A program made the translations under genes and the position numbers. A stretch of DNA of 28,760 nt from a virus. Shown in pieces: positions 531 to 28,760 of this stretch. The notes beneath the pieces are model-generated. The model had not been told where the DNA came from, ran no database searches, and saw nothing but the letters and a program-made list of their open reading frames with translations. The stretch is from IMG/VR virus record IMGVR_UViG_3300025010_002035, positions 1 through 28,760 of that record; one strand, written 5' to 3'. Each line of letters starts with the position of its first letter. Position 1 is the first letter of the stretch.

Positions 531-826
531 GACTTGAAATTCTAGTAAACACCGCAGACTATCCCCAAGAGCGTTTGGTCCGATCCGTCTTGAGTCAACT
601 CCGGAAAGAAGGGGTGTTGTTCATTCCATCTGAGAAGGGTAAGGGTATCTACATCCGTATCGATCACGCCAACCGAAGTGAGATCGAGACCTATGCGAAA
701 GCCCAAGCGCGCCATTTCAAGACCCAGTACTTCAATACTATGTTACCGATGAAACAGTATGTGGAGGACTTGAAGCTGCTGCGGATGCTGGGACGACTTG
801 AAGGGATCCTGGATGAAGAAAAGTGA
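500..826 (+). CDS. Hypothetical early protein, winged-helix-like
   Basis: A 108-residue protein not assigned to a family. Residues 17-55 (NTADYPQERLVRSVLSQL, then a turn, then VLFIPSEKGKGIYIRID) read like a helix-turn-helix followed by a beta wing, as in small phage winged-helix proteins. Residues 60-108 are helical and charged. It begins inside the preceding gene and overlaps the recombinase start by 14 bases, so it belongs to one tightly coupled early transcript. A DNA-binding role next to the recombinase (for example as an excisionase-like factor) is possible but unproven. Confidence 0.6.
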   Translation: MDIQTLNEKLRLEILVNTADYPQERLVRSVLSQLRKEGVLFIPSEKGKGIYIRIDHANRSEIETYAKAQARHFKTQYFNTMLPMKQYVEDLKLLRMLGRLEGILDEEK

Positions 827-1637
827 GTATCAAAATAGTTTACCCCTATTCGCCCGTGATTTACGTCTCGCTGAGAAGAGTCAGAGGACCATCGAGAAAT
901 ATGTCTGTGATGTCCAAAAATTCGTCGACTTCATCCCGGAAAACGAAGAAATTACCAAAGAGCATGTCTTGGCCTACAAAGAGAAGATCTGCTCGGGCAA
1001 ATACAAATCAAATAGCATTAACACGTATATCGTCATTCTCAATCGCTTCCATCGCTGGGCGAAGGTGCCCGATATGTCCGTCAAGGAAATCAAGACGCAG
1101 CAAAAGTCGAGTCTATCCGACGTCGTGACACGAGCGGATGCCAAACGATTACTTAGGACTGCGAAGAAGCGCAAGCGAGATGATATTTACTTGATTCTGA
1201 AGATCATTAGCACCACCGGGATACGGATCAGCGAGTTGGAATACTTCACCGTTGAGAATATCCAGAAACACCACTTCAAAGCGTTTAACAAAGGCAAAGA
1301 GCGCGAGATCCTTTTGACCCAGGAACTCGCCCGTGAATTACGAAAATACTGTAAAAATCATAAGATCCGCGAGGGCAAGATCTTTACCTTAAGCACCCCG
1401 ACGATTTGGCGACAGATGAAGCAGACAGCCAGTGAAGCAAAGGTATCGCTCGAGAGAGTCCATGCCCATAGTTTCCGTCATCTGTTCGCCAAAGAGTTTA
1501 TGGAGCAATACAATAACGTCCTGGACCTAGCCGACATCTTAGGTCATAGCTCGCTAGAAACGACCCGGATTTATACTCGATCCTCCTTGGACGAAAAGAG
1601 AAAAAAACTCGAAAATATGAACCCCCGCCGAAAGTAG
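813..1637 (+). CDS. Tyrosine recombinase / phage integrase
   Basis: A 274-residue tyrosine recombinase with the usual two-domain layout. An N-terminal SAM-like core-binding domain (about residues 5-95, RTIEKYVCDVQKFVDF) is followed by the catalytic domain. The catalytic residues are visible: R138 in TTGIRISEL, a lysine at K160 or K162 in the beta hairpin, H219-x-x-R222 in HSFRHLFA, H245 in LGHSS, and the nucleophile Y254 in TRIYTR. The size is like small XerC-type enzymes, without the long arm-binding domain of many Gram-positive phage integrases. The ATG at 813 follows AAGGGA; an upstream TTG at 798 lacks a site. It likely integrates and excises the element. Its position inside the rightward early operon, rather than beside a divergent lysogeny module, is unusual. 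Confidence 0.92.
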   Translation: MKKSEYQNSLPLFARDLRLAEKSQRTIEKYVCDVQKFVDFIPENEEITKEHVLAYKEKICSGKYKSNSINTYIVILNRFHRWAKVPDMSVKEIKTQQKSSLSDVVTRADAKRLLRTAKKRKRDDIYLILKIISTTGIRISELEYFTVENIQKHHFKAFNKGKEREILLTQELARELRKYCKNHKIREGKIFTLSTPTIWRQMKQTASEAKVSLERVHAHSFRHLFAKEFMEQYNNVLDLADILGHSSLETTRIYTRSSLDEKRKKLENMNPRRK

Positions 1638-2209: not shown

Positions 2210-3022
2210 GTGATACTCACGAAGCTATTGGCTGACACATTAGACACGAATTCAACTGATCTACCTCATTCATCCCTACTAATCAAAGTACAACGTTACA
2301 ACGATGAAGTCGGAACCCTGCAAGGAATCGATTGTCCTGTCTGTAAAAACAAGGGTTACATCATGATCCTGGATGATGGATATACCGCTCTGAAGAAATG
2401 CGATTGTCTTGAGACTCGTAAAAGTAAGAAGCTCATTGAGAAGAGCGGACTCAAGAACCTCATCCAAGAATACACCTTTGAGAAGTTCATCGCCCAAGAA
2501 ACATGGCAGCGAGTCATCAAGGAAAAAGCGTTAGCCTTTGTCCAAGACACCGATTCCCACTGGTTCTTCATAGGGGGTCAAGTCGGAGCGGGGAAAACCC
2601 ATATCTGCACTGCGATCGTTAACGAGTTGATGAAGCAGGGAGAAGAAGCACTGTACATGCTCTGGCGCGATGAAATCATGAAGCTCAAAGCGAACGTCAT
2701 GGAAGGGAATGAATACTTCCAAGCGATGGAAGCATTCAAGACCAAGCCGGTTCTGTACATCGATGACCTGTTCAAATCGGAACGAGGGAAACATCCCACG
2801 ACCTCCGACATCAACATCGCCTTCGAAATCTTGAATGCCCGCTACAACAATCCGGAACTGACAACCATCTTGAGTTCTGAGAAGATTCTAAAGGAAATCC
2901 TGGGAATCGATGAAGCCATCGGTTCCCGGATCTTCCAAAGAGTCGGTAGCTACATGCTTGAACTCAATAAGAATCCTAAAATGAATATGCGACTGCGCGA
3001 AAGGAAACAGCAGTATGAATAA
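2210..3022 (+). CDS. DnaC-like helicase loader, AAA+ ATPase
   Basis: A 270-residue helicase loader of the DnaC/DnaI type, which delivers the replicative helicase to the phage origin. Residues 41-66 carry a small zinc-binding knuckle (C42, C45, C64, C66, as CPVC and CDC). The AAA+ core follows, with Walker A GGQVGAGKTH at 122-131 and Walker B VLYIDDLF at 181-188; sensor-type residues SSEK and an SRIFQRV arginine-finger region come later. The start is uncertain. The frame can begin at GTG 2210, but that codon lies inside the best ribosome site, GAGGTGAT (2207-2214). The codon at ideal spacing is ACG at 2219, followed by AAG, which looks like an ATG-to-ACG change; TTG at 2228 is a third choice. 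The gene overlaps the next one by 8 bases. Confidence 0.88.
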   Translation: MILTKLLADTLDTNSTDLPHSSLLIKVQRYNDEVGTLQGIDCPVCKNKGYIMILDDGYTALKKCDCLETRKSKKLIEKSGLKNLIQEYTFEKFIAQETWQRVIKEKALAFVQDTDSHWFFIGGQVGAGKTHICTAIVNELMKQGEEALYMLWRDEIMKLKANVMEGNEYFQAMEAFKTKPVLYIDDLFKSERGKHPTTSDINIAFEILNARYNNPELTTILSSEKILKEILGIDEAIGSRIFQRVGSYMLELNKNPKMNMRLRERKQQYE

Positions 3023-3308
3023 ATATCGAGAGAATATCGAAGGCTATCTCTATGATCGAAGAGAGCTCCAAGCCAGCAAAGATCCCATCGAACAACAGTG
3101 GTCTGTCATCGTCGAAAAGACCTTCACCAAGTACGAAGGCACTGAAATGGGGAAGTTACTACACTTAAAGTATGAAATGAGACTTCCTGAACAACAAATC
3201 TTCGAGCGACTCAACGTTGAGAAGACAACGTATTATGTCTGGCGCAATCGCCTCGTAAATGAGATTACCCTTCAAGCAGCCTATCAGCGGTTAATAAAAC
3301 CGTTCTAG
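3015..3308 (+). CDS. ArpU/RinA-like phage transcriptional regulator
   Basis: A 97-residue protein of the type found at the end of early operons in Gram-positive phages and annotated as ArpU or RinA-like late regulators. It has a helical N-terminus (DPIEQQWSVIVEKTFTKYEG) and a sigma-like C-terminal helix-turn-helix at about residues 52-85, including KLLHLKYEMRLPEQQIFERL and KTTYYVWRNRLVNEI. Members are thought to activate the packaging and structural operon; here the likely target lies between 8079 and 8196 or further upstream. The start overlaps the end of the helicase loader. The family call rests on pattern and position rather than on strong catalytic motifs. Confidence 0.7.
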   Translation: MNKYRENIEGYLYDRRELQASKDPIEQQWSVIVEKTFTKYEGTEMGKLLHLKYEMRLPEQQIFERLNVEKTTYYVWRNRLVNEITLQAAYQRLIKPF

Positions 3309-3319
3309 AAAGAGGGACA

Positions 3320-4663
3320 ATGCAATTTGAAACCTTGAAGTTAAGTGAGTTAAAGTATGCCCACTACAATCCCCGGAAAGAACTGAAACCCGGAGATGTT
3401 GAATATGAGAAGATCAAACGAAGTATCCAGGAGTTCGGCTATGTCGATCCGATCATCATCAATGCCGATCGAACGATTATCGGAGGACACCAACGCGCTT
3501 CGGTCCTTAAGGACCTGGGTTATGATGAAGTCAATGTCGTCCAGGTTAAAGTCGACAAAACCAAAGAGAAAGCCTTGAACATCGCCCTGAATAAAATCAG
3601 CGGGGAATGGCAGATGGACAAGCTGAAGGATCTCTTGCTTGAACTCGAGCACCAAATCGATTTAGGAGTTACTGGTTTCGATGATGACGAGTTCAAGGAA
3701 CTCCTGGCCAAGATGGATACGACTTCGGCTGAAGAAGATGACTTCGATGTTGAGGCGGCGTTAGACGCGATTGAGCAACCGAAAGCCAAGCGGGGGGATA
3801 TCTACCAACTCGGCCGGCATCGGCTCATGTGCGGCGATTCTACGGACGCCAATGACGTGTTCTTCCTGATGCATGGGAAGCAAGCGGATCTGATCGTCAC
3901 GGATCCTCCATATAACGTCAACTACGAAAACAAGATCGACTACCATAAGAGTTTCAAGAACGAACATCGGAAAAACAACGAGATCATAAATGATCATATG
4001 GACAGTGACAAGTTCTACGATTTTCTGCTCGCGATGTATATCCTGGCTTACGAGCATCTGAAACCCGGTGGTGTGATTTATGTCTTCCACAGTGACGTCG
4101 AGCGGATCAGTTTCCAATCAGCATTCCGAACTGCTGGGTTCAAGTTCTCCGAGAACCTTATCTGGGTCAAAAATTCCTTCAATCTCAGTCGACACGACTA
4201 CCACTGGAGGCATGAACCAATCCTGTATGGTTGGAAGGAAGGCACCGGACACTTCTTTGTGGATGACCGGACGCAGTCGACGATCTTCGATGAAACCCAA
4301 AACATCGAGAAACTCAAGAAGGAAGAACTCGTCGAGCTCCTCTCCAGATTCCTCGAGCAAACCCAGACCACGATCCTTTATGAAAACAAACCGCTCAAGA
4401 GTGACATTCATCCCACCATGAAGCCCGTGCCGCTCATTGGACGCTTGATTAAGAATAGCAGCCTTAGAGATCAACTCGTCTATGAACCCTTCGGAGGAAG
4501 CGGTTCTACGCTGATTGCGGCTAATCAACTGGACCGGACCTGCTACTGCATGGAGATGGATCCTAGATACGTGGATGTGATCATTCAACGCTGGGAGGAC
4601 TTGACTGGTAGCAAATCTGTACAACTCAATCTCGACAAATCAAATCCTTTACCAAACAATTAG
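3320..4663 (+). CDS. ParB-domain DNA methyltransferase (N4-cytosine/N6-adenine type)
   Basis: A 447-residue fusion. Residues 1-130 form a ParB/Sulfiredoxin-like domain (HYNPRK, then IIINADRTIIGGHQR at 46-59). Residues 155-435 form a beta-class site-specific DNA methyltransferase with the catalytic motif TDPPYNV at 194-200 and the SAM-binding motif FGGSGS at 391-396 near the C-terminus (motif IV before motif I, as in the beta class). It methylates DNA using S-adenosylmethionine; whether the base is N6-A or N4-C cannot be fixed, though DPPY favours adenine. No restriction enzyme is adjacent, so it is an orphan methylase that could shield phage DNA or mark packaging or origin sites. It is the last gene before a strong terminator. 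Confidence 0.9.
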   Translation: MQFETLKLSELKYAHYNPRKELKPGDVEYEKIKRSIQEFGYVDPIIINADRTIIGGHQRASVLKDLGYDEVNVVQVKVDKTKEKALNIALNKISGEWQMDKLKDLLLELEHQIDLGVTGFDDDEFKELLAKMDTTSAEEDDFDVEAALDAIEQPKAKRGDIYQLGRHRLMCGDSTDANDVFFLMHGKQADLIVTDPPYNVNYENKIDYHKSFKNEHRKNNEIINDHMDSDKFYDFLLAMYILAYEHLKPGGVIYVFHSDVERISFQSAFRTAGFKFSENLIWVKNSFNLSRHDYHWRHEPILYGWKEGTGHFFVDDRTQSTIFDETQNIEKLKKEELVELLSRFLEQTQTTILYENKPLKSDIHPTMKPVPLIGRLIKNSSLRDQLVYEPFGGSGSTLIAANQLDRTCYCMEMDPRYVDVIIQRWEDLTGSKSVQLNLDKSNPLPNN

Positions 4664-4682: not shown

Positions 4683-4731
4683 AGAGGACATGCATCCCTT
4701 CCCCCAAATTAGAGTGCATGTCCTCTTTCTT
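4683..4731 (+). terminator. Rho-independent terminator ending the early operon
   Basis: A 12-base perfect stem, AGAGGACATGCA (4683-4694) pairing with TGCATGTCCTCT (4715-4726), with a 20-base loop and then a T-rich run. It follows the methyltransferase stop by 20 bases and separates the early operon from the AT-rich cargo island. Confidence 0.85.
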
Positions 4732-4752
4732 ATACTCGTTTTGCGAGAGTCA

Positions 4753-4761
4753 TGTTAAAAT
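4753..4761 (+). promoter_or_regulatory. Candidate extended -10 promoter for the Nmad3 gene
   Basis: TGT followed by TAAAAT (4756-4761) forms an extended -10 element. Transcription would start near 4768, a few bases before the GAGGGGA ribosome site. No good -35 is visible. It would let the cargo gene be expressed independently of the terminated early operon. Confidence 0.3.
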
Positions 4762-4784
4762 TATTCAAAAGTGAGGGGAATCTT

Positions 4785-5585
4785 ATGGAGAGAAAAATCA
4801 TCTTAAGTAGAAAAGGGTTTGATTCAGCGAATGGAGGAAAGCCAAGTCCAATTCTTGAGGATGGCACGTTACTATCTCTACCCATTCCAAACAAAGATGA
4901 TAATAATAGTTACTCAGAATTACGTTATGGTAAATACTCATTCTATGAAATCTTAAGCCACCTAAATGTTATGGATAAATTTAAGAATTGTGAATGTCAC
5001 CTTGATCCGGATATTTATAAACAAGTGAAGTCACGTGGAGATGAATGGGTAGCCTGTTTCGGTCAATCTCATGCTGCTTTTTCGCACCTTGAAGCTAAAG
5101 ACGTCAATAAGGGAGATATCTTTCTATTCTTTGGATGGTACAAACAGACTGTAGAGTCAGATGGATTAATTCAATATAAAAGAGGTGCCTCTGATCAACA
5201 TATCATTTTTGGATATCTGCAAGTTGGAGAGAAAATTACCGATGAACGAATCAAAGAACTTTACTGGCATCCACACTCCATCAACCATGAAGTAGGGAAA
5301 AATGTAATTTATAAGGCAGCTGATAAATTATTGGATACGAACCTTCCGGGATATGGTACTTTCAAATTGTCAAAAGATTTGGTGCTAACAAAGGATGGTT
5401 ATTCTCGTTCACGGTGGGAACTACCTGACTGCTTGAAATCATCGCCCATGACTTACCATGATGATCGCAGTAGAAAGAAAGACTATTTCCAATCAGCCAT
5501 GATTGGTCAGGAATTTGTGATGAAAAGTACTCCCGAGATCGAAAAATGGATTATTTCGATTGCCGAAAATAACAGAGTAGAATAA
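4785..5585 (+). CDS. Nmad3-family protein (nucleotide-modification-associated domain 3)
   Basis: A 266-residue protein beginning MERKIILSRKGFDSANGG and continuing SPILEDGTLLSLPIP, the N-terminal signature I associate with Nmad3, a domain found with phage and bacterial DNA-base modification genes. Later conserved-looking pieces are HLDPD, the acidic CFGQSHAAFSHLEAKDVNKG, DIFLFFGWY, HIIFGYLQVGEKI and HPHSIN. Its biochemical activity is not known; the family is only linked to nucleotide modification by gene context. It sits directly after a DNA methyltransferase, but in AT-rich DNA behind a terminator, so it looks like a separately acquired cargo gene. ATG 4785 follows GAGGGGA with good spacing; an ATG at 4752 has no site. 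No membrane segment or signal peptide. Confidence 0.72.
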   Translation: MERKIILSRKGFDSANGGKPSPILEDGTLLSLPIPNKDDNNSYSELRYGKYSFYEILSHLNVMDKFKNCECHLDPDIYKQVKSRGDEWVACFGQSHAAFSHLEAKDVNKGDIFLFFGWYKQTVESDGLIQYKRGASDQHIIFGYLQVGEKITDERIKELYWHPHSINHEVGKNVIYKAADKLLDTNLPGYGTFKLSKDLVLTKDGYSRSRWELPDCLKSSPMTYHDDRSRKKDYFQSAMIGQEFVMKSTPEIEKWIISIAENNRVE

Positions 5586-5840
5586 CAGAAAATGCATCAA
5601 AAAAAGAGGACGATTTTTCGGGAAAGTATCGAACCCTTTTTTCATGCTTTAAACCCCCTATTTAAAGGCTATAACATACTTTTCCGGCACGTAATCTAAC
5701 CTTAGGCTTATATTGCGTTCGAATTCGAAAATCGAAATATTTTAAGTTCTCATATGTGATGGTGTTAAAGATTTAATTTGCACTATTATTATGTAGTAAA
5801 TAGATGTATGATTTTTCTATGTAATAATAGGGGGGAAAAA
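5586..5840. other. AT-rich intergenic stretch between cargo genes
   Basis: No convincing gene. It contains a perfect 12-base palindrome, TTCGAATTCGAA, at 5719-5730, a TATGAT box at 5807-5812 with no properly spaced -35, and AGGGGGG at 5829-5835 as the ribosome site of the next gene. There is no clear terminator for the Nmad3 gene. Confidence 0.4.
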
Positions 5841-6956
5841 ATGGCTCTAATAATGTGTCCGGAGTGTGGTAAAGATGTCTCAGATAAAGCCCATGTTTGC
5901 CCAAATTGTGGATTCCCAATTGCAATGGAAAAAAACGCCAAAATTGAAACAAATTTAAGTCGTGAAGATTTGATCCAAATTGCATCTAGTGAAATTGAGA
6001 GAAAGCAATTTAATGAAGCCATAAAATCGCTATCCATGATAATGGATCCTGATGCTGAAGTATTTGAATTACTTGCTGATGCTTATTTTTGTGATGGAGA
6101 AGAGTTACATTGCGATTTTGATAAATCAATAGAGTATTATCAGAAGGCTATTGATTATTTGAAATGCTCACAAGTAATATCTATTGAATTGATGTGTTTA
6201 TATTTAAAAATTGGATTTGCCTATTCAACACGTGCTCGAGATGTTTTCGATATGGAAATGGCAGTTTCTTTTGCAGCAAGGGTTGCTGAAATTGACTCTG
6301 AAAATGAACAAGCAAAAGCCAATCTTGCAAGTGTTTATTGGCAATATTGTCAAAAAATGCTAAACAGAGAGCTCGAAGTTTATGATCTTGATTTAGCAAA
6401 AGAATATTTAGATATTGCAACAGAATATGCAACGTCAAGCGAGGAGATTTTGAGTGCAATTGCTGAAAGTTATTCAAATCTAAGTTATGCTTATTCAAAA
6501 CATGAGAACCGGAAACCGGATCTTAGTGATGAGATGGAATGTTCGCAAAAGGCATTAAGTCTTGCCCCAAATGATAAAGACTATAAAAAATCTCTTAAAC
6601 TAATCTATAATTTAAATGCTATGAATTATTTTGTTGGAAATGGTGTGGAAGTAGATTTATTGAAATCAAAACACTATTTTAAGAAAACACTTGAGTTTGA
6701 CAAAAATAATCAGGAAATTATTCGGCGAATCATTCTTATAAACAATTATTTGGGTATAGTATGTTGCCCGAGGTGTGGGTCTGAGAATGTTAAACATAAA
6801 AGTACTCCTAAAAAACAAAGGAATCAATCTTTTTCATACTCTATTACGAGAACAATAGCAAATATTGTATCCGACTCTCTGACAAACGCACAAAAAAGCG
6901 AGACTATTGAAGATTTCTACGTTTGTGAAGATTGTGGTTTTGAAGTAAGACAATAG
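5841..6956 (+). CDS. Zinc-ribbon / TPR-repeat / zinc-ribbon protein
   Basis: A 371-residue soluble protein of unknown function. Residues 3-25 are a zinc ribbon (C6, C9, C20, C23: MCPECGKD, then VCPNCGFPI). About residues 40-300 are tetratricopeptide-like helical repeats (FELLADAYFCDGEE, KSIEYYQKAIDYLK, SYSNLSYAYSKHE, CSQKALSLAPNDKDY, KHYFKKTLEFDKNNQE). The C-terminus is a second, split zinc-binding pair (C309 and C312 in CCPRCGSENV, C362 and C365 in VCEDCGFEV) separated by a 49-residue Ser/Lys/Asn-rich insert. TPRs usually mediate protein contacts and paired zinc ribbons bind nucleic acid or protein, suggesting a scaffold. Strongly AT-rich and unlike the phage core. The start at 5841 follows AGGGGGG; the upstream ATG at 5778 has no site. 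Confidence 0.65.
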   Translation: MALIMCPECGKDVSDKAHVCPNCGFPIAMEKNAKIETNLSREDLIQIASSEIERKQFNEAIKSLSMIMDPDAEVFELLADAYFCDGEELHCDFDKSIEYYQKAIDYLKCSQVISIELMCLYLKIGFAYSTRARDVFDMEMAVSFAARVAEIDSENEQAKANLASVYWQYCQKMLNRELEVYDLDLAKEYLDIATEYATSSEEILSAIAESYSNLSYAYSKHENRKPDLSDEMECSQKALSLAPNDKDYKKSLKLIYNLNAMNYFVGNGVEVDLLKSKHYFKKTLEFDKNNQEIIRRIILINNYLGIVCCPRCGSENVKHKSTPKKQRNQSFSYSITRTIANIVSDSLTNAQKSETIEDFYVCEDCGFEVRQ

Positions 6957-7364
6957 TATTTATTGTTTGGTGATCCAGATAGATACCAATTATATTTAAC
7001 ATGTATTATAGAATTTTGAGTCAATCAAATCTGTGTGCTTTACGAAGTCCGTTGAAACATTGGGCTTAACCTAGAGTTTTCAATCAATTTTTACTCATAA
7101 AGTATTGAGTATATTGTGTATTTACTAAGTCTTGAATTAAGTAACTGGATTATCATAATTATGGATAAAGGGGAACGAAAATATGAAAAGAAAGTAAATA
7201 GAACCATAACATAGTGAAATAGAGGAAGCAAATGACCTGAAGTGAAAATGGCAACTTAGTGATTAAGAATATCTTTATGTTTGTGATTCTTCTATAGATT
7301 AAGCATGAATTTATCGTTTTGCATGGAGATAGTAAGGTATTTTAGGAAATATGGAGGGGAATCA
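6957..7364. other. AT-rich gene-poor gap with a possible gene-start remnant
   Basis: About 400 bases with no long open frame on either strand. At 7167-7173 a good AAAGGGG ribosome site leads to ATG at 7183 and only four codons (MKRK) before a stop; an overlapping frame from ATG 7161 gives 17 codons (MDKGERKYEKKVNRTIT). This is what the decayed 5' end of a lost gene would look like. No terminator hairpin or well-spaced promoter was seen. Confidence 0.35.
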
Positions 7365-8078
7365 ATGTCACAGAATGTCAATGGAAATATCCAATCTAAT
7401 ATTGAAGAAGCATTGTGTTTATCAGGCGAACTTAAAAGGAAAAAGATATATATTGATTTCAATAAGTCTAGGCTTGTATTTGATGTTCAACCTAGGAAAA
7501 TTGTTGATTGCAGAGATATAACTTTTGTGATTAGCAAAGAAGATAAAGAAATAAATCATGGAGGAACCGCATTTCTTATTGCTTTTTCCGTAATTACATT
7601 ACTTATGATATTCTATAATTATGAAACATTACCTGTTATATTTATTTCATATTATACGTATGAATATGATTGGACAGGCATAATAACTAACTCACTCTTT
7701 ACAGGATTGATTTGGGGTGGAGTTGCCTTCTTAATTAGTTACTTTGCGAAGAAACGTATGGCAGTATTCGAGATAAAAACTATAACAGCTGAGTCATTTG
7801 AGATTGCCATGAATCTTGCAGATAAAGAAAGATTCTTGACTCTACTAGAATATGAAGTAAGAATTGATTATGAAAAATCAAATGCTTCAGGTAGAAATAG
7901 CGCTTTCAGTAAATCTCAAGAAAATTCTGCAATAGATTCTAGAGAGTTATTACCAGTTAAATCAGCTAGTAATGCCGTTGTATATTATGATCAGCTTGTA
8001 AAATTGAGTGAGTTGAGAGAAAAAGGTATATTGACTGATGTTGAATTCGATAGAGAAAAGATGAAAATTCTAGAATGA
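7365..8078 (+). CDS. Membrane protein with C-terminal SHOCT motif
   Basis: A 237-residue integral membrane protein. Residues 1-65 are soluble and strand-rich (KKIYIDFNKSRLVFDVQ). Hydrophobic segments lie at about 68-98 and 105-127 (FLIAFSVITLLMIF; SLFTGLIWGGVAFLISYF), followed by a cytoplasmic region (AVFEIKTITAESFEIAMNLA) that resembles a lipid- or membrane-proximal PH-like strand pattern. After a Ser/Asn-rich linker, residues 207-236 (YYDQLVKLSELREKGILTD, then EFDREKMKIL) match the SHOCT motif, a short C-terminal element often found with membrane or oligomerising domains. ATG 7365 follows GGAGGGGA; ATG 7305 is rejected for lack of a site. Function unknown. Third gene of the AT-rich island, ended by a terminator. 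Confidence 0.65.
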   Translation: MSQNVNGNIQSNIEEALCLSGELKRKKIYIDFNKSRLVFDVQPRKIVDCRDITFVISKEDKEINHGGTAFLIAFSVITLLMIFYNYETLPVIFISYYTYEYDWTGIITNSLFTGLIWGGVAFLISYFAKKRMAVFEIKTITAESFEIAMNLADKERFLTLLEYEVRIDYEKSNASGRNSAFSKSQENSAIDSRELLPVKSASNAVVYYDQLVKLSELREKGILTDVEFDREKMKILE

Positions 8079-8136
8079 CATCAATTGGTCTAGTATATTT
8101 GAAATTCCTATAGAAGATATTCACATATCGTTTTAC

Positions 8137-8162
8137 ACTTCGGTACTTACCGGAGTTTTTTT
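8137..8162 (+). terminator. Rho-independent terminator closing the cargo island
   Basis: ACTTCGG (8137-8143) pairs with CCGGAGT (8150-8156), with one G-T pair and a 6-base loop, followed by seven Ts (8156-8162). It lies between the SHOCT protein and the first packaging gene, so the late operon needs its own promoter or antitermination. Confidence 0.75.
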
Positions 8163-8196
8163 GTATGGTACCGTTTCACTGTAAAGAGGTGATAAT

Positions 8197-8643
8197 TTGG
8201 CCAAAAGTAAATGGGAATCTGTACAAGCCAAATTGAGCCTTATCGAGAAGTGGGCAAGAGATGGTCTTCGTGAAGATCAGATTGCTAAGAACCTAGGTAT
8301 TTCTGTCACCACTCTGGAAGTATATAAAAAATCTCAACCCGAGTTAATGAAGGCCCTTAAAAAGGGGAAGGAAACTCTGATTACTGAACTCGAGAATGCG
8401 TTGATTAAAAAAGCTCTGGGATATGACTACGAAGAAAAGAAAGTCTACACCAAAACAGAAAATGGACAATCAGTCACCTATACCGAAATAACAAAGAAAC
8501 ATCAGCCACCAGACACTGGCGCTTTATTCGGTCTTTTGAAGAATAAGGACCCGGAACATTACTCTGACAATCCTCAGATGCTGCAACTCAAGAAACAAGA
8601 GTTGGAACTGAGAGAACGTCTAGCTAAACAAGGGGATTGGTAA
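8197..8643 (+). CDS. Small-terminase-like HTH protein
   Basis: A 148-residue protein, first of the late operon. Residues 15-50 form a helix-turn-helix (LIEKWARDGLREDQIAKNL, then GISVTTLEVYKKSQPEL), followed by ALKKGKETLITELENALIKKA, a central strand pair (YDYEEKKVYTK) and PPDTGALFGLLKNKDPEHY. This pattern occurs in DNA-recognition subunits of phage terminases and in proteins annotated as terminase-like HTH proteins. Because a P27-type small terminase follows at 9496, its exact job is unclear: a second DNA-recognition factor or a late regulator. The start is TTG 8197 after AGAGGTGAT. The TAA stop overlaps the next ATG (TAATG). Confidence 0.65.
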   Translation: MAKSKWESVQAKLSLIEKWARDGLREDQIAKNLGISVTTLEVYKKSQPELMKALKKGKETLITELENALIKKALGYDYEEKKVYTKTENGQSVTYTEITKKHQPPDTGALFGLLKNKDPEHYSDNPQMLQLKKQELELRERLAKQGDW

Positions 8644-9362
8644 TGGCAAAGTATCAAGTCCTATCTGAATTCTATAAAAGTCCGGAATGGATCAACCTAC
8701 GTAAGCAGCTCATGTTGGAACGGAGTAGTACAAGCAGAGGGCTGCTATGTGAGATCTGTCATGAACCGATACTAAGAGATATCGAGTGTATCGGACACCA
8801 TATCCAAGAACTCACACCCCAGAATGTTAACGATGTACAGGTGAGTTTGAACCCAAGAAACATTCTGCTGGTACATCACCGCTGTCATAACGCACTCCAC
8901 GAACGCTTCGGACAAACCATGCTGCAGCGTGTCTACATCGTCTATGGACCACCGTTGTCCGGTAAGACCAGCTTCGTCCGTAACAATAAAGGACGAAAGG
9001 ACTTGGTGCTGGATCTTGATGAACTATACCAAGCCATCACATTACTACCTGCCTATGATAAGCCTACTGAGCTCAAGATGAATGTGTTTCAAATCCGTGA
9101 TGAACTCCTGGATCAAATGAAAATACGTATGGGGAAATGGCAGAATGCCTGGATCATCGGTGGGTATCCACTGCAATCAGAGCGTCAACGTCTCGCTACA
9201 AGCCTTGGTGCTGAGTTGATCTATGTCGTAGCGTCCGAAGAGGAATGTCTTCGTCGTTTATTTGAAGATAGGGATAAACTGCCGTTTCAAACGGAATGGC
9301 AGAAATATATCCACGATTGGTTCCTTGCATTTCGGCCGGACTCCCCCCCGGTCGAGATGTAG
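8643..9362 (+). CDS. HNH endonuclease fused to P-loop kinase-like domain
   Basis: A 239-residue fusion. Residues 1-90 form an HNH nuclease: zinc pair C36/C39 (CEIC), H52-H53 (GHHIQEL), N73, and HHRCHNALHERF with C81/H82. Residues 97-235 form a P-loop NTPase: Walker A GPPLSGKT at 102-109, DLVLDLDELYQAI as the Walker B-like strand, and a C-terminal lid (EECLRRLFEDRDKLP), like phage polynucleotide-kinase-type proteins. HNH proteins beside terminase genes are required for cos cleavage in HK97-like phages. The ATG at 8643 overlaps the previous stop; the TTG at 8637 is rejected. A C7 run at 9343-9349 near the 3' end forms C_CCC_CCG in frame, beyond which the -1 frame stays open to 9487. Confidence 0.85.
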   Translation: MAKYQVLSEFYKSPEWINLRKQLMLERSSTSRGLLCEICHEPILRDIECIGHHIQELTPQNVNDVQVSLNPRNILLVHHRCHNALHERFGQTMLQRVYIVYGPPLSGKTSFVRNNKGRKDLVLDLDELYQAITLLPAYDKPTELKMNVFQIRDELLDQMKIRMGKWQNAWIIGGYPLQSERQRLATSLGAELIYVVASEEECLRRLFEDRDKLPFQTEWQKYIHDWFLAFRPDSPPVEM

Positions 9363-25304: not shown

Positions 25305-25985
25305 TTACATGTTTTCATTCTGTTTTGATAAACTATTAAGAAGTCTAGTAATTACTAGAGTGCAGATTCCATTGAGGTCTATTAGTAATTGGATATCATT
25401 ACTATACACGATTGTTGGTTCGCCAGCCTTTTTCAATTGCATATGCATTTCTGAAAGCAAGAAGTAACCTGAACCATCAAACGAATATACACAATGGTTT
25501 TCATCATCAAATTCGAGAACTAATGAATCTTCTATATTCTCAGTTATTGAGTCAATTATATTTTTAAAAAGTAATTTATCTTCATATGCATCCTTAATTT
25601 TGTAATGACTTGCTGAAATTCTTAAACTTTTATAGTGTGGTGTTTTCAACTTTTTATACAATTCTTGCCAATCAATCTCTGTCAGCAATTGCATATCAAT
25701 TTTCTGAAAGATTGTTTTGCATACATCATCTAGGTCGCAAGTTGAATGATTCCAAAGCAAATTCTTTAGTTCATAAAATACCCAATAATATCTCGTTGAC
25801 AAGAAAGTTAGTAATGATCTCTTTTTCTTGCTATCAACTTCACTTGAGCTGATCGCATAATAAAGTTCGACATATGCATTTATTTCTTCACGTGATTTAA
25901 AGAATCTAGAAAGAAATACTTTTTCGGAATCATTATTGCATATTTCAAAGATATCCTTTAGGGAGAATTCTTTTTGAAAAGTCAT
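25305..25985 (-). CDS. Hypothetical protein, only leftward gene
   Basis: A 226-residue soluble protein with no recognised domain, rich in Lys, Glu, Leu, Tyr and Ser and strongly AT-rich. It is mostly helical in its first 150 residues (FSLKDIFEICNNDSEKVFLS; YYWVFYELKNLLWNHS; TEIDWQELYKKLKTPHY) and strand-like later (SLVLEFDDENHCVYSFDGSG; PTIVYSNDIQLLIDLNG). The start, MTFQKEF at 25983-25985, has GGAGGT upstream; a longer reading from 25997 would place the ATG within that site. It converges on the late-operon terminator and diverges from the restriction gene. It could be a moron expressed in the lysogen, since it is opposite to the lytic transcripts; function unknown. Confidence 0.65.
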   Translation of the reverse strand: MTFQKEFSLKDIFEICNNDSEKVFLSRFFKSREEINAYVELYYAISSSEVDSKKKRSLLTFLSTRYYWVFYELKNLLWNHSTCDLDDVCKTIFQKIDMQLLTEIDWQELYKKLKTPHYKSLRISASHYKIKDAYEDKLLFKNIIDSITENIEDSLVLEFDDENHCVYSFDGSGYFLLSEMHMQLKKAGEPTIVYSNDIQLLIDLNGICTLVITRLLNSLSKQNENM

Positions 25986-26011
25986 AAATACCTCCAAAAT
26001 GAGTTAAACTA

Positions 26012-26040
26012 AGTATACACATTTCTTACAATAATCAGAA
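26012..26040 (-). promoter_or_regulatory. Candidate promoter for the leftward gene
   Basis: On the minus strand, TTCTGA (-35, plus-strand 26035-26040) and TATACT (-10, 26012-26017) are separated by 17 bases. Initiation would fall about 20 bases before the ATG. The -10 is good, the -35 weak. Confidence 0.4.
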
Positions 26041-26155
26041 GCATAAAGTGAGTATGTCGAACGAAGTAGAATCATTCGAAAATCAATTTTGGGGATTAAA
26101 TTGATATAGTGATGAAATATTAACCATGTTACAATTAGTAAAAGGGGAATTAACA

Positions 26156-26713
26156 ATGAAACAGAATGAAATTGAAGCATTTAAGACAGGTATATTTGCA
26201 TTGAGAACAAGAAGATTTGGTACTGTAGCCGAGTTGATGATTCAACGTCTACAAGATATCGATCATTCAAATGCACTATCATATGACTTACATGATAAGA
26301 CAACTGATGAAAAAGTAGAGGTGAAATTTTCTACTGTTATGAAGGAAAATGAAGACACCATCAATTTGAAAAATGTTATTGATCAATGCTACAAGGCGAA
26401 TTTAACTTTACGGATGATGCTTAGTACTGAAACGAAGGATCATAAATTCGATTGTAATATTCAGCAAGTGAAAAGAAAAGAATTTGATGTATTGTACTAC
26501 GGGCTTTTTTTTAACGATAAAATTGCTGTATTTAAGATGAACTCAAACGATGTACTTAATTGTGTTGGGTATTCGGATAAGCAGCACAGAGGGAATATTG
26601 GTGAGGGGCAATTCCACATAAATAATGATACATTTCAGTTCCATATTGACAATCACTTTTTATATTGGTTGACATATGAGGAACTGTTTAAATTGTTTGC
26701 TACTAAGCCTTAA
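26156..26713 (+). CDS. Putative type II restriction endonuclease
   Basis: A 185-residue protein with the signs of a PD-(D/E)xK nuclease: an N-terminal helix with a conserved-looking glutamate (RFGTVAELMIQRL, E26), then D44 in SYDLHDK and the core E55-V-K57 in EKVEVKFST, followed by NLKNVIDQCY and the strand segment RKEFDVLYYGLFFNDKIAVF. It lies 52 bases upstream of an adenine methyltransferase in the same direction, the arrangement of a type II restriction-modification pair. It should cut DNA lacking the partner's methylation; the target site cannot be predicted. The ATG at 26156 follows AAAAGGGGA; the ATG at 26126 is less supported. Strongly AT-rich, foreign to the phage core. Confidence 0.7.
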   Translation: MKQNEIEAFKTGIFALRTRRFGTVAELMIQRLQDIDHSNALSYDLHDKTTDEKVEVKFSTVMKENEDTINLKNVIDQCYKANLTLRMMLSTETKDHKFDCNIQQVKRKEFDVLYYGLFFNDKIAVFKMNSNDVLNCVGYSDKQHRGNIGEGQFHINNDTFQFHIDNHFLYWLTYEELFKLFATKP

Positions 26714-26765
26714 TTAGGTTGATACCTAACCGATTGTGTGGAATAATACTTCCTGAGGTGATAAC

Positions 26766-28760
26766 GTGAATCTGTTCGACTTCGACTTTGATCAGCATGA
26801 ATCAATAGATGCCACAATGGCAAGCGAAATATTATCGGTTAATGAAGCGACTATTCGAAATTGGGTAAAATCTGAGATTCTTAAACCAATAACCACTAGT
26901 GGGAAAATGTTTTTTAGCAAAAAGGATGTTCAGGATGTTCTCAATAGGATTTTGAGCGGGGAATTAAACCGATTGAAAACAAGAAGAAACAAGAAATTCA
27001 CCTCGGGGAATGTAGTTCCGAAGAATTATCTCGAGAGTAAAAAAAGGTTCAAACTGGCAGAAATGGTAGTTGAAAATTTAGATCTTGAGAACCTAAATGA
27101 ATCAGATACTTTGATAATATTAGCTGAACTTGCGCTAAGAATTTTCTCAAGTAAGAATAACTTACCTAAAAGAGATTTCTACCTCGATCATGTTTCAGAG
27201 TTTGGACAGTTTGGCGAACTTGTATCTGATCTTATTGAAAACGTTGATCAAATCCACGATAGAACACGCACTTATTTCAATACATTCGATTTAGATATTA
27301 CATACAATAATGACGATTTTCTTGGCTTGATTTACATGGCAATTCAGAATCTTGAAGATCGGAAATCAAATGGAGTTTACTATACAACCACTTCTGTCGT
27401 AAAGGAAATGGTTAGTGAGGTTAAAGGTTTACTTACGGTAAGTGAAGATATTAAAATAATAGATCCATGTTGTGGTACTGGTAATTTTCTTCTTGAGATT
27501 CTCAGGTTTTCAAAAGACTACAACAGACTGCATGGTATTGATGTCGATCCAATTTCGGTCAAGATATGTCGAATAAACATAGGATTGTACTGTGATGAGT
27601 TTGATGTGTCTGTTATTAAAAAGAATATACAATGTCAAAACAGTCTAGAAATGACTGAGAATAATGAGTTCGATATCTGTATAGGTAATCCGCCTTGGGG
27701 TTCTGACTTCTCTCAAGATCAGAAACTTCGCTATAATCTGATTTATGAAAGTTGTACTAGAAAAACAATTGAATCATTTAGTCTGTTTCTAGAAAAGTCA
27801 ATTAGACTGACTAAAGAAAATGGATTAATAAGTTTCGTATTGCCAGAAACGTTTTTATTGGCTGGAATCCATAAGAAAATTAGGGAAATTGTTCAATCAA
27901 AGACTAAATTACATTACCTAGTATATTGGGGAAACATCTTTCATCATGTTCAAAGCCCCGCCATTTCAGTAACACTGAAGAGAACGAAAACAAACGATTT
28001 TTTTGGCGGAGCGAGAGTTAAGAATGGTAACAAAGAATACACGATAGAGAATTATGATAACCTATCGAACGGTTGGTCACTTAATATGGAAAACACAGAA
28101 CAATCAATGATTGAACTTTCGAAACAAGGTGATCGTAAGTATCTTGAAGGTAATGCGGATTTTGCACTTGGTATTGTGACAGGTGATAATAAAAAGCATA
28201 TCTTATCTGAACCTATAGAAAACTGTAGAGAAATATACAAAGGTAGTGATGTGAACAAGTTTAAACTTGGCAAGGCAAGTAATTATATATTGTATCGTCC
28301 AGAGTTGTACCAACAAGTTGCAAAGGGTAATTACTACTTTGCTGATGAAAAGCTAATATATCGATTCATAAGTGATACACTAGTCTTTGCATATGATAAC
28401 AAAAAATCTCTAACACTAAATAGTGCAAATATATTGGTACCACACATTGAGAACTTACCTATAAAATTCATTTTAGCAATTTTAAACTCAAGTTTTGCAG
28501 ATTTCTACTTTAAACTCAAATTCAAGTCGGTTAAAGTGTTGAGAAAACATATTGAGAGTATACCAATACCAGACGTAGATCAATCTAAAATAGATGAAAT
28601 CGTGCATATAGTTGATGAAATTTTAGAAACAGATGACAAAAATCAGAATTATGTATTATATGAAAGATTGGATGATATAATTCTAAATTTATATGGTTTC
28701 GATGATGCACAAAAAGATGCAATTCAGAATACATCGTTAAAATGCAGATACATTAAGTAA
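26766..28760 (+). CDS. HTH-fused adenine-specific DNA methyltransferase (type II R-M)
   Basis: A 664-residue gamma-class N6-adenine methyltransferase. Residues 10-62 form a MerR/excisionase-like helix-turn-helix (MASEILSVNEATIRNWVKSE; MFFSKKDVQDVLNRI). The motor part has motif X GVYYTT at 203-208, SAM-binding motif I DPCCGTGNF at 233-241, an acidic motif II (GIDVDP) and catalytic motif IV NPPW at 308-311. Residues 330-640 form a TaqI/Eco57I-like specificity region (PETFLLAGIHKKIREIV; FHHVQSPAISVTLK; ILAILNSSFADFYF; IESIPIP). It protects the sites cut by the nuclease upstream. The start is GTG 26766 after GAGGTGAT. The HTH may let it bind its own promoter, replacing a separate control protein, which is absent. 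Its stop is the last base of the window. Confidence 0.88.
   Translation: MNLFDFDFDQHESIDATMASEILSVNEATIRNWVKSEILKPITTSGKMFFSKKDVQDVLNRILSGELNRLKTRRNKKFTSGNVVPKNYLESKKRFKLAEMVVENLDLENLNESDTLIILAELALRIFSSKNNLPKRDFYLDHVSEFGQFGELVSDLIENVDQIHDRTRTYFNTFDLDITYNNDDFLGLIYMAIQNLEDRKSNGVYYTTTSVVKEMVSEVKGLLTVSEDIKIIDPCCGTGNFLLEILRFSKDYNRLHGIDVDPISVKICRINIGLYCDEFDVSVIKKNIQCQNSLEMTENNEFDICIGNPPWGSDFSQDQKLRYNLIYESCTRKTIESFSLFLEKSIRLTKENGLISFVLPETFLLAGIHKKIREIVQSKTKLHYLVYWGNIFHHVQSPAISVTLKRTKTNDFFGGARVKNGNKEYTIENYDNLSNGWSLNMENTEQSMIELSKQGDRKYLEGNADFALGIVTGDNKKHILSEPIENCREIYKGSDVNKFKLGKASNYILYRPELYQQVAKGNYYFADEKLIYRFISDTLVFAYDNKKSLTLNSANILVPHIENLPIKFILAILNSSFADFYFKLKFKSVKVLRKHIESIPIPDVDQSKIDEIVHIVDEILETDDKNQNYVLYERLDDIILNLYGFDDAQKDAIQNTSLKCRYIK

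Follow-up and report, generated by a model that had tools for sequence, protein, structure and literature searches.

A candidate recombinase core divides an exchangeable cargo locus in temperate phages of Erysipelotrichaceae

The window analysed here, the whole 28,760-bp virus record IMGVR_UViG_3300025010_002035, comes from a temperate phage of Erysipelotrichaceae and holds an AT-rich island of three genes between its early genes and the gene for the terminase small subunit (terS). A conserved non-coding element, made up of a hairpin with an AAGTAT motif, a spacer and a 30-bp core, separates the gene for an Nmad3 protein in a left compartment from those for a zinc-ribbon/TPR-like protein and a SHOCT membrane protein in a right compartment. 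We propose that the island is a cargo dock, consisting of two exchangeable compartments around the element, and that the core is most likely the target of int2, a second Xer-like tyrosine recombinase of the phage; we put the probability of this reading at about two in three.

Gene turnover in two compartments

Relatives of the phage, whose hosts are Erysipelotrichaceae and related metagenome-assembled genomes (MAGs), were gathered by terS, with those at least about 85% identical in terS counted as close, and the stretch from the ParB-methyltransferase gene to terS was then compared. Between these two conserved phage genes the relatives carry about 22 distinct right-hand alleles, a high gene turnover of the kind seen in P2/P4-type hotspots. 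The right cargo includes a PHP-ATPase of the PDC-M49A type (L004), an APH-family kinase (L002), a protein kinase (L016), a P-type metal ATPase (L005), a PAS-HD protein (L006), an amidase (L007), a formamidase (L037), a trypsin-like PDC-S45 protein (L010), GmrSD-type proteins (L012, L027), PDC-M30/M41 (L014), SIR2 (L030), DitA (L038), TetR/DegV/ABC transporter genes assigned by eye (L015, L026, L031), and a phosphoenolpyruvate carboxylase with DUF6671 and GAF-HD proteins (L028, L029). At least eight alleles match known or candidate defence families (SIR2/ThsA, HEC-06-type, PD-T4-6-like kinase, PDC-M30/M41, PDC-S45, PDC-M49A, DitA, and GmrSD-type), and eight right alleles have PADLOC matches. 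In relatives further away (L018, L019, L098) the hotspot position is taken up by ordinary small phage genes. The cargo of L028 (734-6191) and L029 is unusual in being metabolic, with a full-length phosphoenolpyruvate carboxylase (PEPcase_2, E 1e-179), an MFS-like transporter and the GAF-HD signalling protein.

The left compartment varies as well. It holds Nmad3 in the window and L004, zinc-ribbon genes in L012, SHOCT genes in L014, L016, and L028, and small or other genes in L005, L008, L015, L029, L034, and L037, and it is empty in L002 and L027. The two sides assort independently: the same left cargo occurs with different right cargo in the pairs window/L004 and L014/L016, and the same right cargo with different left cargo in L028/L029 and L031/L026. 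Homology breaks sharply at the core. L014 and L016, from different metagenomes, are 100% identical over the core and the 101 nt to its left (99.75% over 810 nt) and 37% identical, as random sequences are, to its right, while L028 and L029 are 57% identical to the left, 97% in the core, and 100% immediately to the right (99.6% over 6.1 kb). Identities to the left, within, and to the right of the core are 82/93/28% for window/L004 and 91/90/39% for L030/L194, and across 21 loci the mean pairwise identity falls from 0.75 in the right arm of the core to 0.33 immediately past it.

The other sharp border is a terminator (ACTTCGGTACTTACCGGAGT-T6) that directly precedes terS in every one of 22 close relatives, regardless of cargo. 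Mean pairwise identity of the relatives is near random (0.39) outside its edge and 0.91 within; its pairing is intact in 176 of 176 cells, and two pairs show compensatory changes among the 22 relatives. On the left, a terminator-like hairpin (GAGGACATGCA...TGCATGTCCTC-TTTCTT) follows the early operon in the window, L004, and L005, each with different downstream genes. Because the same hairpins stand beside different cargo, we regard the terminators as phage backbone and not as cargo; a terminator scan alone was not above chance, with 4 found against 4.2 expected. The first-pass annotation of this DNA, made without database searches, had described three genes in AT-rich DNA between two terminators, inserted exactly at the early/late junction, and this description is borne out: the island has a GC content of 30-37% compared with 45-50% in its flanks, a third-position GC content of 0.22-0.32 compared with 0.57-0.60 in its surroundings, and as neighbours the ParB_N-methyltransferase fusion and terS.

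That annotation had further suggested that Nmad3, a zinc-ribbon scaffold and a SHOCT protein form a single cassette for defence or superinfection exclusion. Their genes are indeed adjacent, co-oriented and AT-rich, and Nmad3 homologues occur in defence neighbourhoods, but the element divides Nmad3 from the other two, and the Nmad3 of L004, 87% identical, is partnered by the PHP-ATPase instead. The SHOCT genes of L014, L016, and L028 are found in the left compartment beside different partners, the one in L028 being a distant homologue on the opposite side of the element from that of the window. The relatives hold no conserved neighbourhood of the three genes, an outcome that the annotation itself had named as refuting its proposal, and the three were seen together again only in L025, a member of the same population (100% identical). 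A single cassette is thus very improbable, and since the compartments assort independently, with breakpoints at the core edge, the three genes represent two separate acquisitions. What survives of the proposal is its link to phage defence, because defence families are frequent at the hotspot and the chromosomal homologues of Nmad3 sit among defence genes; the notion of one working set does not. L025 itself may be a chimera or a remnant, since its identity to the window is 100% up to about 9 kb and then drops to about 82% before the contig ends.

The conserved element and int2

The core of the window reads ACGTAATCTAA-CCTTAGGC-TTATATTGCGT, an imperfect palindrome with 11-bp arms and an 8-bp centre. 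Arm complementarity averages 7.78 of 11 over 23 elements, which are related by descent and so are not 23 independent tests, compared with 3.12 (standard deviation 0.77) at other offsets, the next best reaching 4.87. In other phages the symmetry is kept with other arm bases (10/11 in L212, 8/11 in L209 and L211). A centre of 8 bp fits best, and one of 6 bp scores nearly as high. By these features the core looks like a dif or lox site; a search of 5 host genomes that allowed up to 3 mismatches found no canonical Firmicute dif.

A profile of the whole element (R1), built from its alignment and searched in relatives with enough left flank, matches with E-values of 1e-25 to 1e-7, also in distant relatives, and there too between the early operon and terS; in L012, L014, and L016 the match is marginal (E 0.5-1.6) and the core is visible by eye. 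The AAGTAT motif lies a constant 55-58 nt from the box, and about 85 nt upstream of the core are conserved. Each phage has one element, except L035, where two copies (7609-8222) flank a 63-aa open reading frame in a cassette-like arrangement. Two identities tried for the element were rejected: a known RNA, as Rfam gave no match in the window, and a sigma-70 promoter, as the window subclade (TCTAAC) does not retain its -10-like bases.

The candidate recombinase, int2, has 279 residues and no arm-binding domain, and is encoded in addition to an ordinary integrase with such a domain at the left end. Its best NCBIfam models are XerA, XerD, and XerC, all under their curated cut-offs, with the integron-integrase models TIGR02249 and PRK15417 scoring far under these, and its relatives in the PDB are XerC-like, XerA, and XerD. 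It retains the catalytic residues, with R143, K165/K167, H224, R227, H250, and Y259 (the catalytic tyrosine) invariant in 8 relatives. The gene lies in the early operon of relatives with enough sequence, and its product is about 57% identical even in L059, L060, and L098.

A scan based on int2 reached phages outside the terS lineage, and in three other phage groups the element adjoins the int2 gene: it begins at most 20 nt from the int2 end in L195, L213, and L209-L211, and ends 30 nt before int2 in L212. L215, whose int2 is the most distant (43%), had no element match, and L214 gave weak matches only. Mainly because of the adjacency in the three groups, which is typical of recombinases and their sites, we infer that int2 acts on the core.

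Two other roles for the element can be weighed against this evidence. The element could be the cos packaging site, with a cos-adjacent hotspot like those of P2 and P4; the two cargo sides would then be located at the two extremities of the virion DNA, and therefore any interior crossover would reassort them. Its placement between the early genes and terS fits this idea, as do the cos-adjacency of P2/P4 hotspots (PMC9122126), the adjoining HNH-domain and terminase genes and the contig L010, the only one to end inside the element. A 33-kb record holding L146 ends near the element and has no match to the terS-portal stretch of the window. However, the element adjoins a recombinase gene in L195 and L209-L213, which argues against cos-adjacency as in P2/P4, and in L210 and L212 over 5 kb separate it from the nearest terminase-like gene downstream. 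The 11-8-11 dyad suits a tyrosine recombinase, and cos alone does not explain why homology stops at the core edge, so that we consider a cos site unlikely.

Alternatively, the core may be kept for unrelated regulation, as an operator or promoter, and the cargo moved by ordinary homologous recombination between the conserved flanks only. Many elements contain TATAAT-like bases, the hairpin is terminator-like in several, and a DUF1492 protein, late-activator-like, is encoded at 3015-3308. Against this, the window subclade has lost the -10-like bases, the element pairs with int2 and is duplicated in L035, and the symmetry and 8-bp centre persist in L212, whose recombinase is only about 46% identical. 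We find a purely regulatory core rather improbable.

A proposed route of cargo exchange

A more specific form of the dock proposal, that the dedicated Xer-like recombinase and its dif-like site exchange cargo between co-resident prophages and decayed chromosomal copies as a phage-encoded docking port for genes of defence and host fitness, seems to us evenly poised between right and wrong. The slot lies between terminators, with the core as a boundary. From there, int2 would recombine the cores of two co-resident phages, or of a phage and a cargo circle, for which there is opportunity because several hosts contain terS of the lineage in two or three copies. The joint molecule would then be resolved into new left/right combinations, either by int2 itself or by a homologous crossover within early or late genes: the right cargo would be replaced by core recombination combined with homologous exchange across terS and the late genes, and the left cargo by exchange across the early genes. 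The cargo, which the terminators would insulate from the lytic operons and so make expressible in the lysogen, would be expressed there and serve the host or exclude rival phages. The main task of int2 may be multimer resolution as in Cre/lox, with cargo swapping as a by-product.

Decayed copies do exist. One chromosomal locus with the same host flanking genes holds pieces of such phages in three host genomes: a left-compartment gene and the element in L194, and, in L039 and L030, the element accompanied by terS and HNH fragments and by a cargo gene that is metal-ATPase-like or encodes SIR2. Because these remnants keep cargo though structural genes are lost, they suggest that the cargo benefits the host.

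Several observations weigh against the dock proposal. Cargo exchange at the core is read from a comparison of contigs, and the recombination itself is inferred from it; the contigs are mostly metagenomic, so that an assembly join at a 30-nt repeat is unlikely but possible, and near-identity on one side is confined to two of the breakpoint pairs. Since most phages carry a single element, exchange would need a second, homologous crossover. In the window lineage the element lies about 4 kb from int2, in L195 and L213 the symmetry is weaker and scores best away from the expected centre, and the conserved dyad could serve another protein, such as the terminase or a late activator. As for the cargo, it is a mixture of defence and non-defence genes, promoter-like sites are not above chance and none before the cargo genes is stronger than chance, and the AlphaFold model of Nmad3, made from 4 sequences, is unusable (pLDDT, the predicted local distance difference test, 33).

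The closest known systems are the dif modules of Acinetobacter plasmids and the P2/P4 hotspots. The Acinetobacter modules rely on host XerCD and on 28-bp sites (11-6-11), usually one at each module end. In two reports on these dif (pdif) modules, accessory genes are bounded by short Xer-type sites and shuffled between replicons (PMC13141974, PMC6449649). The cargo described here likewise appears to be bounded by a core with imperfect inverted arms of about 11 bp, but the Xer-like protein would be phage-encoded, the centre best fits 8 bp, with 6 bp scoring nearly as high, and, except in L035, the phages usually have a single site, the second border being a terminator. The cos-adjacent P2/P4 hotspots are small, variable, defence-rich loci that run from a replication gene to a packaging or structural gene (Rousset 2022; PMC9122126). 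The present locus resembles them in being small and variable, in lying between two conserved genes, and in having defence families in its cargo, and differs in belonging to unrelated phages of Firmicutes, in its recombinase-core-like divider and two compartments, and in its many non-defence genes.

Other likenesses are more partial. In Cre/lox of phage P1 and other phage multimer resolution systems, an arm-less tyrosine recombinase acts on an inverted-repeat core with an 8-bp centre. The phage-encoded, arm-less int2 and the inverted-repeat core, whose centre best fits 8 bp, are similar, whereas int2 is closer to XerA, XerC, and XerD, some 85 nt before the core are conserved, and cargo is clustered around the site. 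Phage morons are accessory genes of foreign composition, bounded by terminators and placed between phage operons, and the island genes share these traits; unlike morons, they sit in a dedicated slot that has been filled again and again and is bordered exactly by a recombinase-like core. The poor match of int2 to integron-integrase models, and the absence of arrays among the elements found apart from the two in L035, distinguish the locus from an integron.

Gain and swapping of accessory genes at fixed places in phages have mostly been attributed to illegitimate or homologous recombination. If the proposal is correct, a phage recombinase with its own site at the cargo border would supply a defined and testable swap mechanism, and the 30-bp core a mark for locating such docks and new defence genes in other phages, and possibly a genetic tool. 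A partial literature search found no paper on a phage Xer-like recombinase with cargo.

Cargo proteins and neighbouring features

The identification of Nmad3 in the first-pass annotation is upheld by a full-length match to PF18754 (207.6 bits compared with a Pfam cut-off of 27); the gene start was refined by sequence to the ATG at 4785, which has a good ribosome-binding site upstream. Nmad3 is rare: of 392 genomes of the phylum, 5 have matches, two of which are broken copies, and there are no relatives in 50,697 phage records. It is probably a defence-linked protein, because chromosomal homologues adjoin McrBC, WYL, and AAA defence genes: an AAA_5 protein with McrC and a NERD-helicase in L140, and an AAA protein with a WYL regulator in L104 and L141, L104 also having a PHP/SMC ATPase. 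In L142 a broken Nmad3 gene lies next to one for an SMC protein of the LmuB type. No solved-structure relative was found by sequence, and a partial literature search yielded no paper on Nmad3 function; a general remark, in which Nmad3 is not named, predicts a nucleotide-modification-associated domain to be defensive (PMC13092281). If the link is correct, Nmad3 would take a place among likely defence-associated proteins. A MAG with a copy of the window island (L025 12698-13447; L104) has a second Nmad3, 48% identical and a few kb away, in a defence-like island that holds AAA, WYL, and PHP/SMC ATPase genes.

The other two proteins had been described as a double zinc-ribbon TPR protein and a SHOCT membrane protein. 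The former has Zn_Ribbon_1 at its N-terminus (E 5e-7) and a second CxxC pair at its C-terminus, as expected from that description, but its TPR signal is weak (E 0.0015). The SHOCT match of the latter (E 4e-6) falls slightly below the Pfam cut-off, while its hydrophobic stretches, which probably span the membrane, agree with the earlier description. Neither protein has relatives that were found in viral contigs, and for the former, outside its zinc ribbon, neither viral contigs nor 316 genomes of the order gave a convincing relative, apart from the same population. The two are perhaps a membrane-linked exclusion pair.

Table 1. Positions of the locus, int2 and other features in the window
Feature	Position	Strand	Basis
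int2, second Xer-like tyrosine recombinase without arm-binding domain	798-1637	+	Phage_integrase and SAM-like N-terminal domain
ParB_N-N6/N4 methyltransferase fusion, last early gene, left hotspot border	3320-4663	+	conserved in relatives
Terminator-like hairpin after early operon, backbone	about 4684-4731	+	inverted repeat
Nmad3 protein, left-compartment cargo	4785-5585	+	PF18754, E 3e-61
Conserved non-coding element	5600-5719	+	profile R1
30-bp core, 11-8-11 imperfect palindrome	5689-5718	+	arm complementarity, homology breakpoints at edge
Zinc-ribbon/TPR-like protein, right-compartment cargo	5841-6956 (ATG 5841)	+	Zn_Ribbon_1
SHOCT membrane protein, right-compartment cargo	7365-8078 (ATG 7365)	+	SHOCT domain match
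Terminator before terS, fixed right border of right compartment	8137-8162	+	22/22 relatives
TGnTAnnnT, candidate extended -10 of late promoter	8166-8174	+	alignment
terS, terminase small subunit, right border gene	8197-8643	+	phrog_309
REase_II-like gene, second island	26126-26713		
Eco57I-like methyltransferase, second island	26766-28760		

Of the border features (Table 1), the fusion of a ParB_N domain to an N6/N4 DNA methyltransferase is the last early gene in most of the lineage. Directly 3' of the right terminator, a TGnTAnnnT motif whose TG, TA, and T positions are invariant in 22 sequences may be the -10 region of the late promoter; terminator and probable promoter fit into about 40 nt. 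Between terS and terL (8637-9362), weak Pfam matches indicate an HNH domain fused to a P-loop kinase-like domain. The right end of the window (25305-28760) is a second AT-rich island, with a type II restriction-modification set and a gene on the opposite strand.

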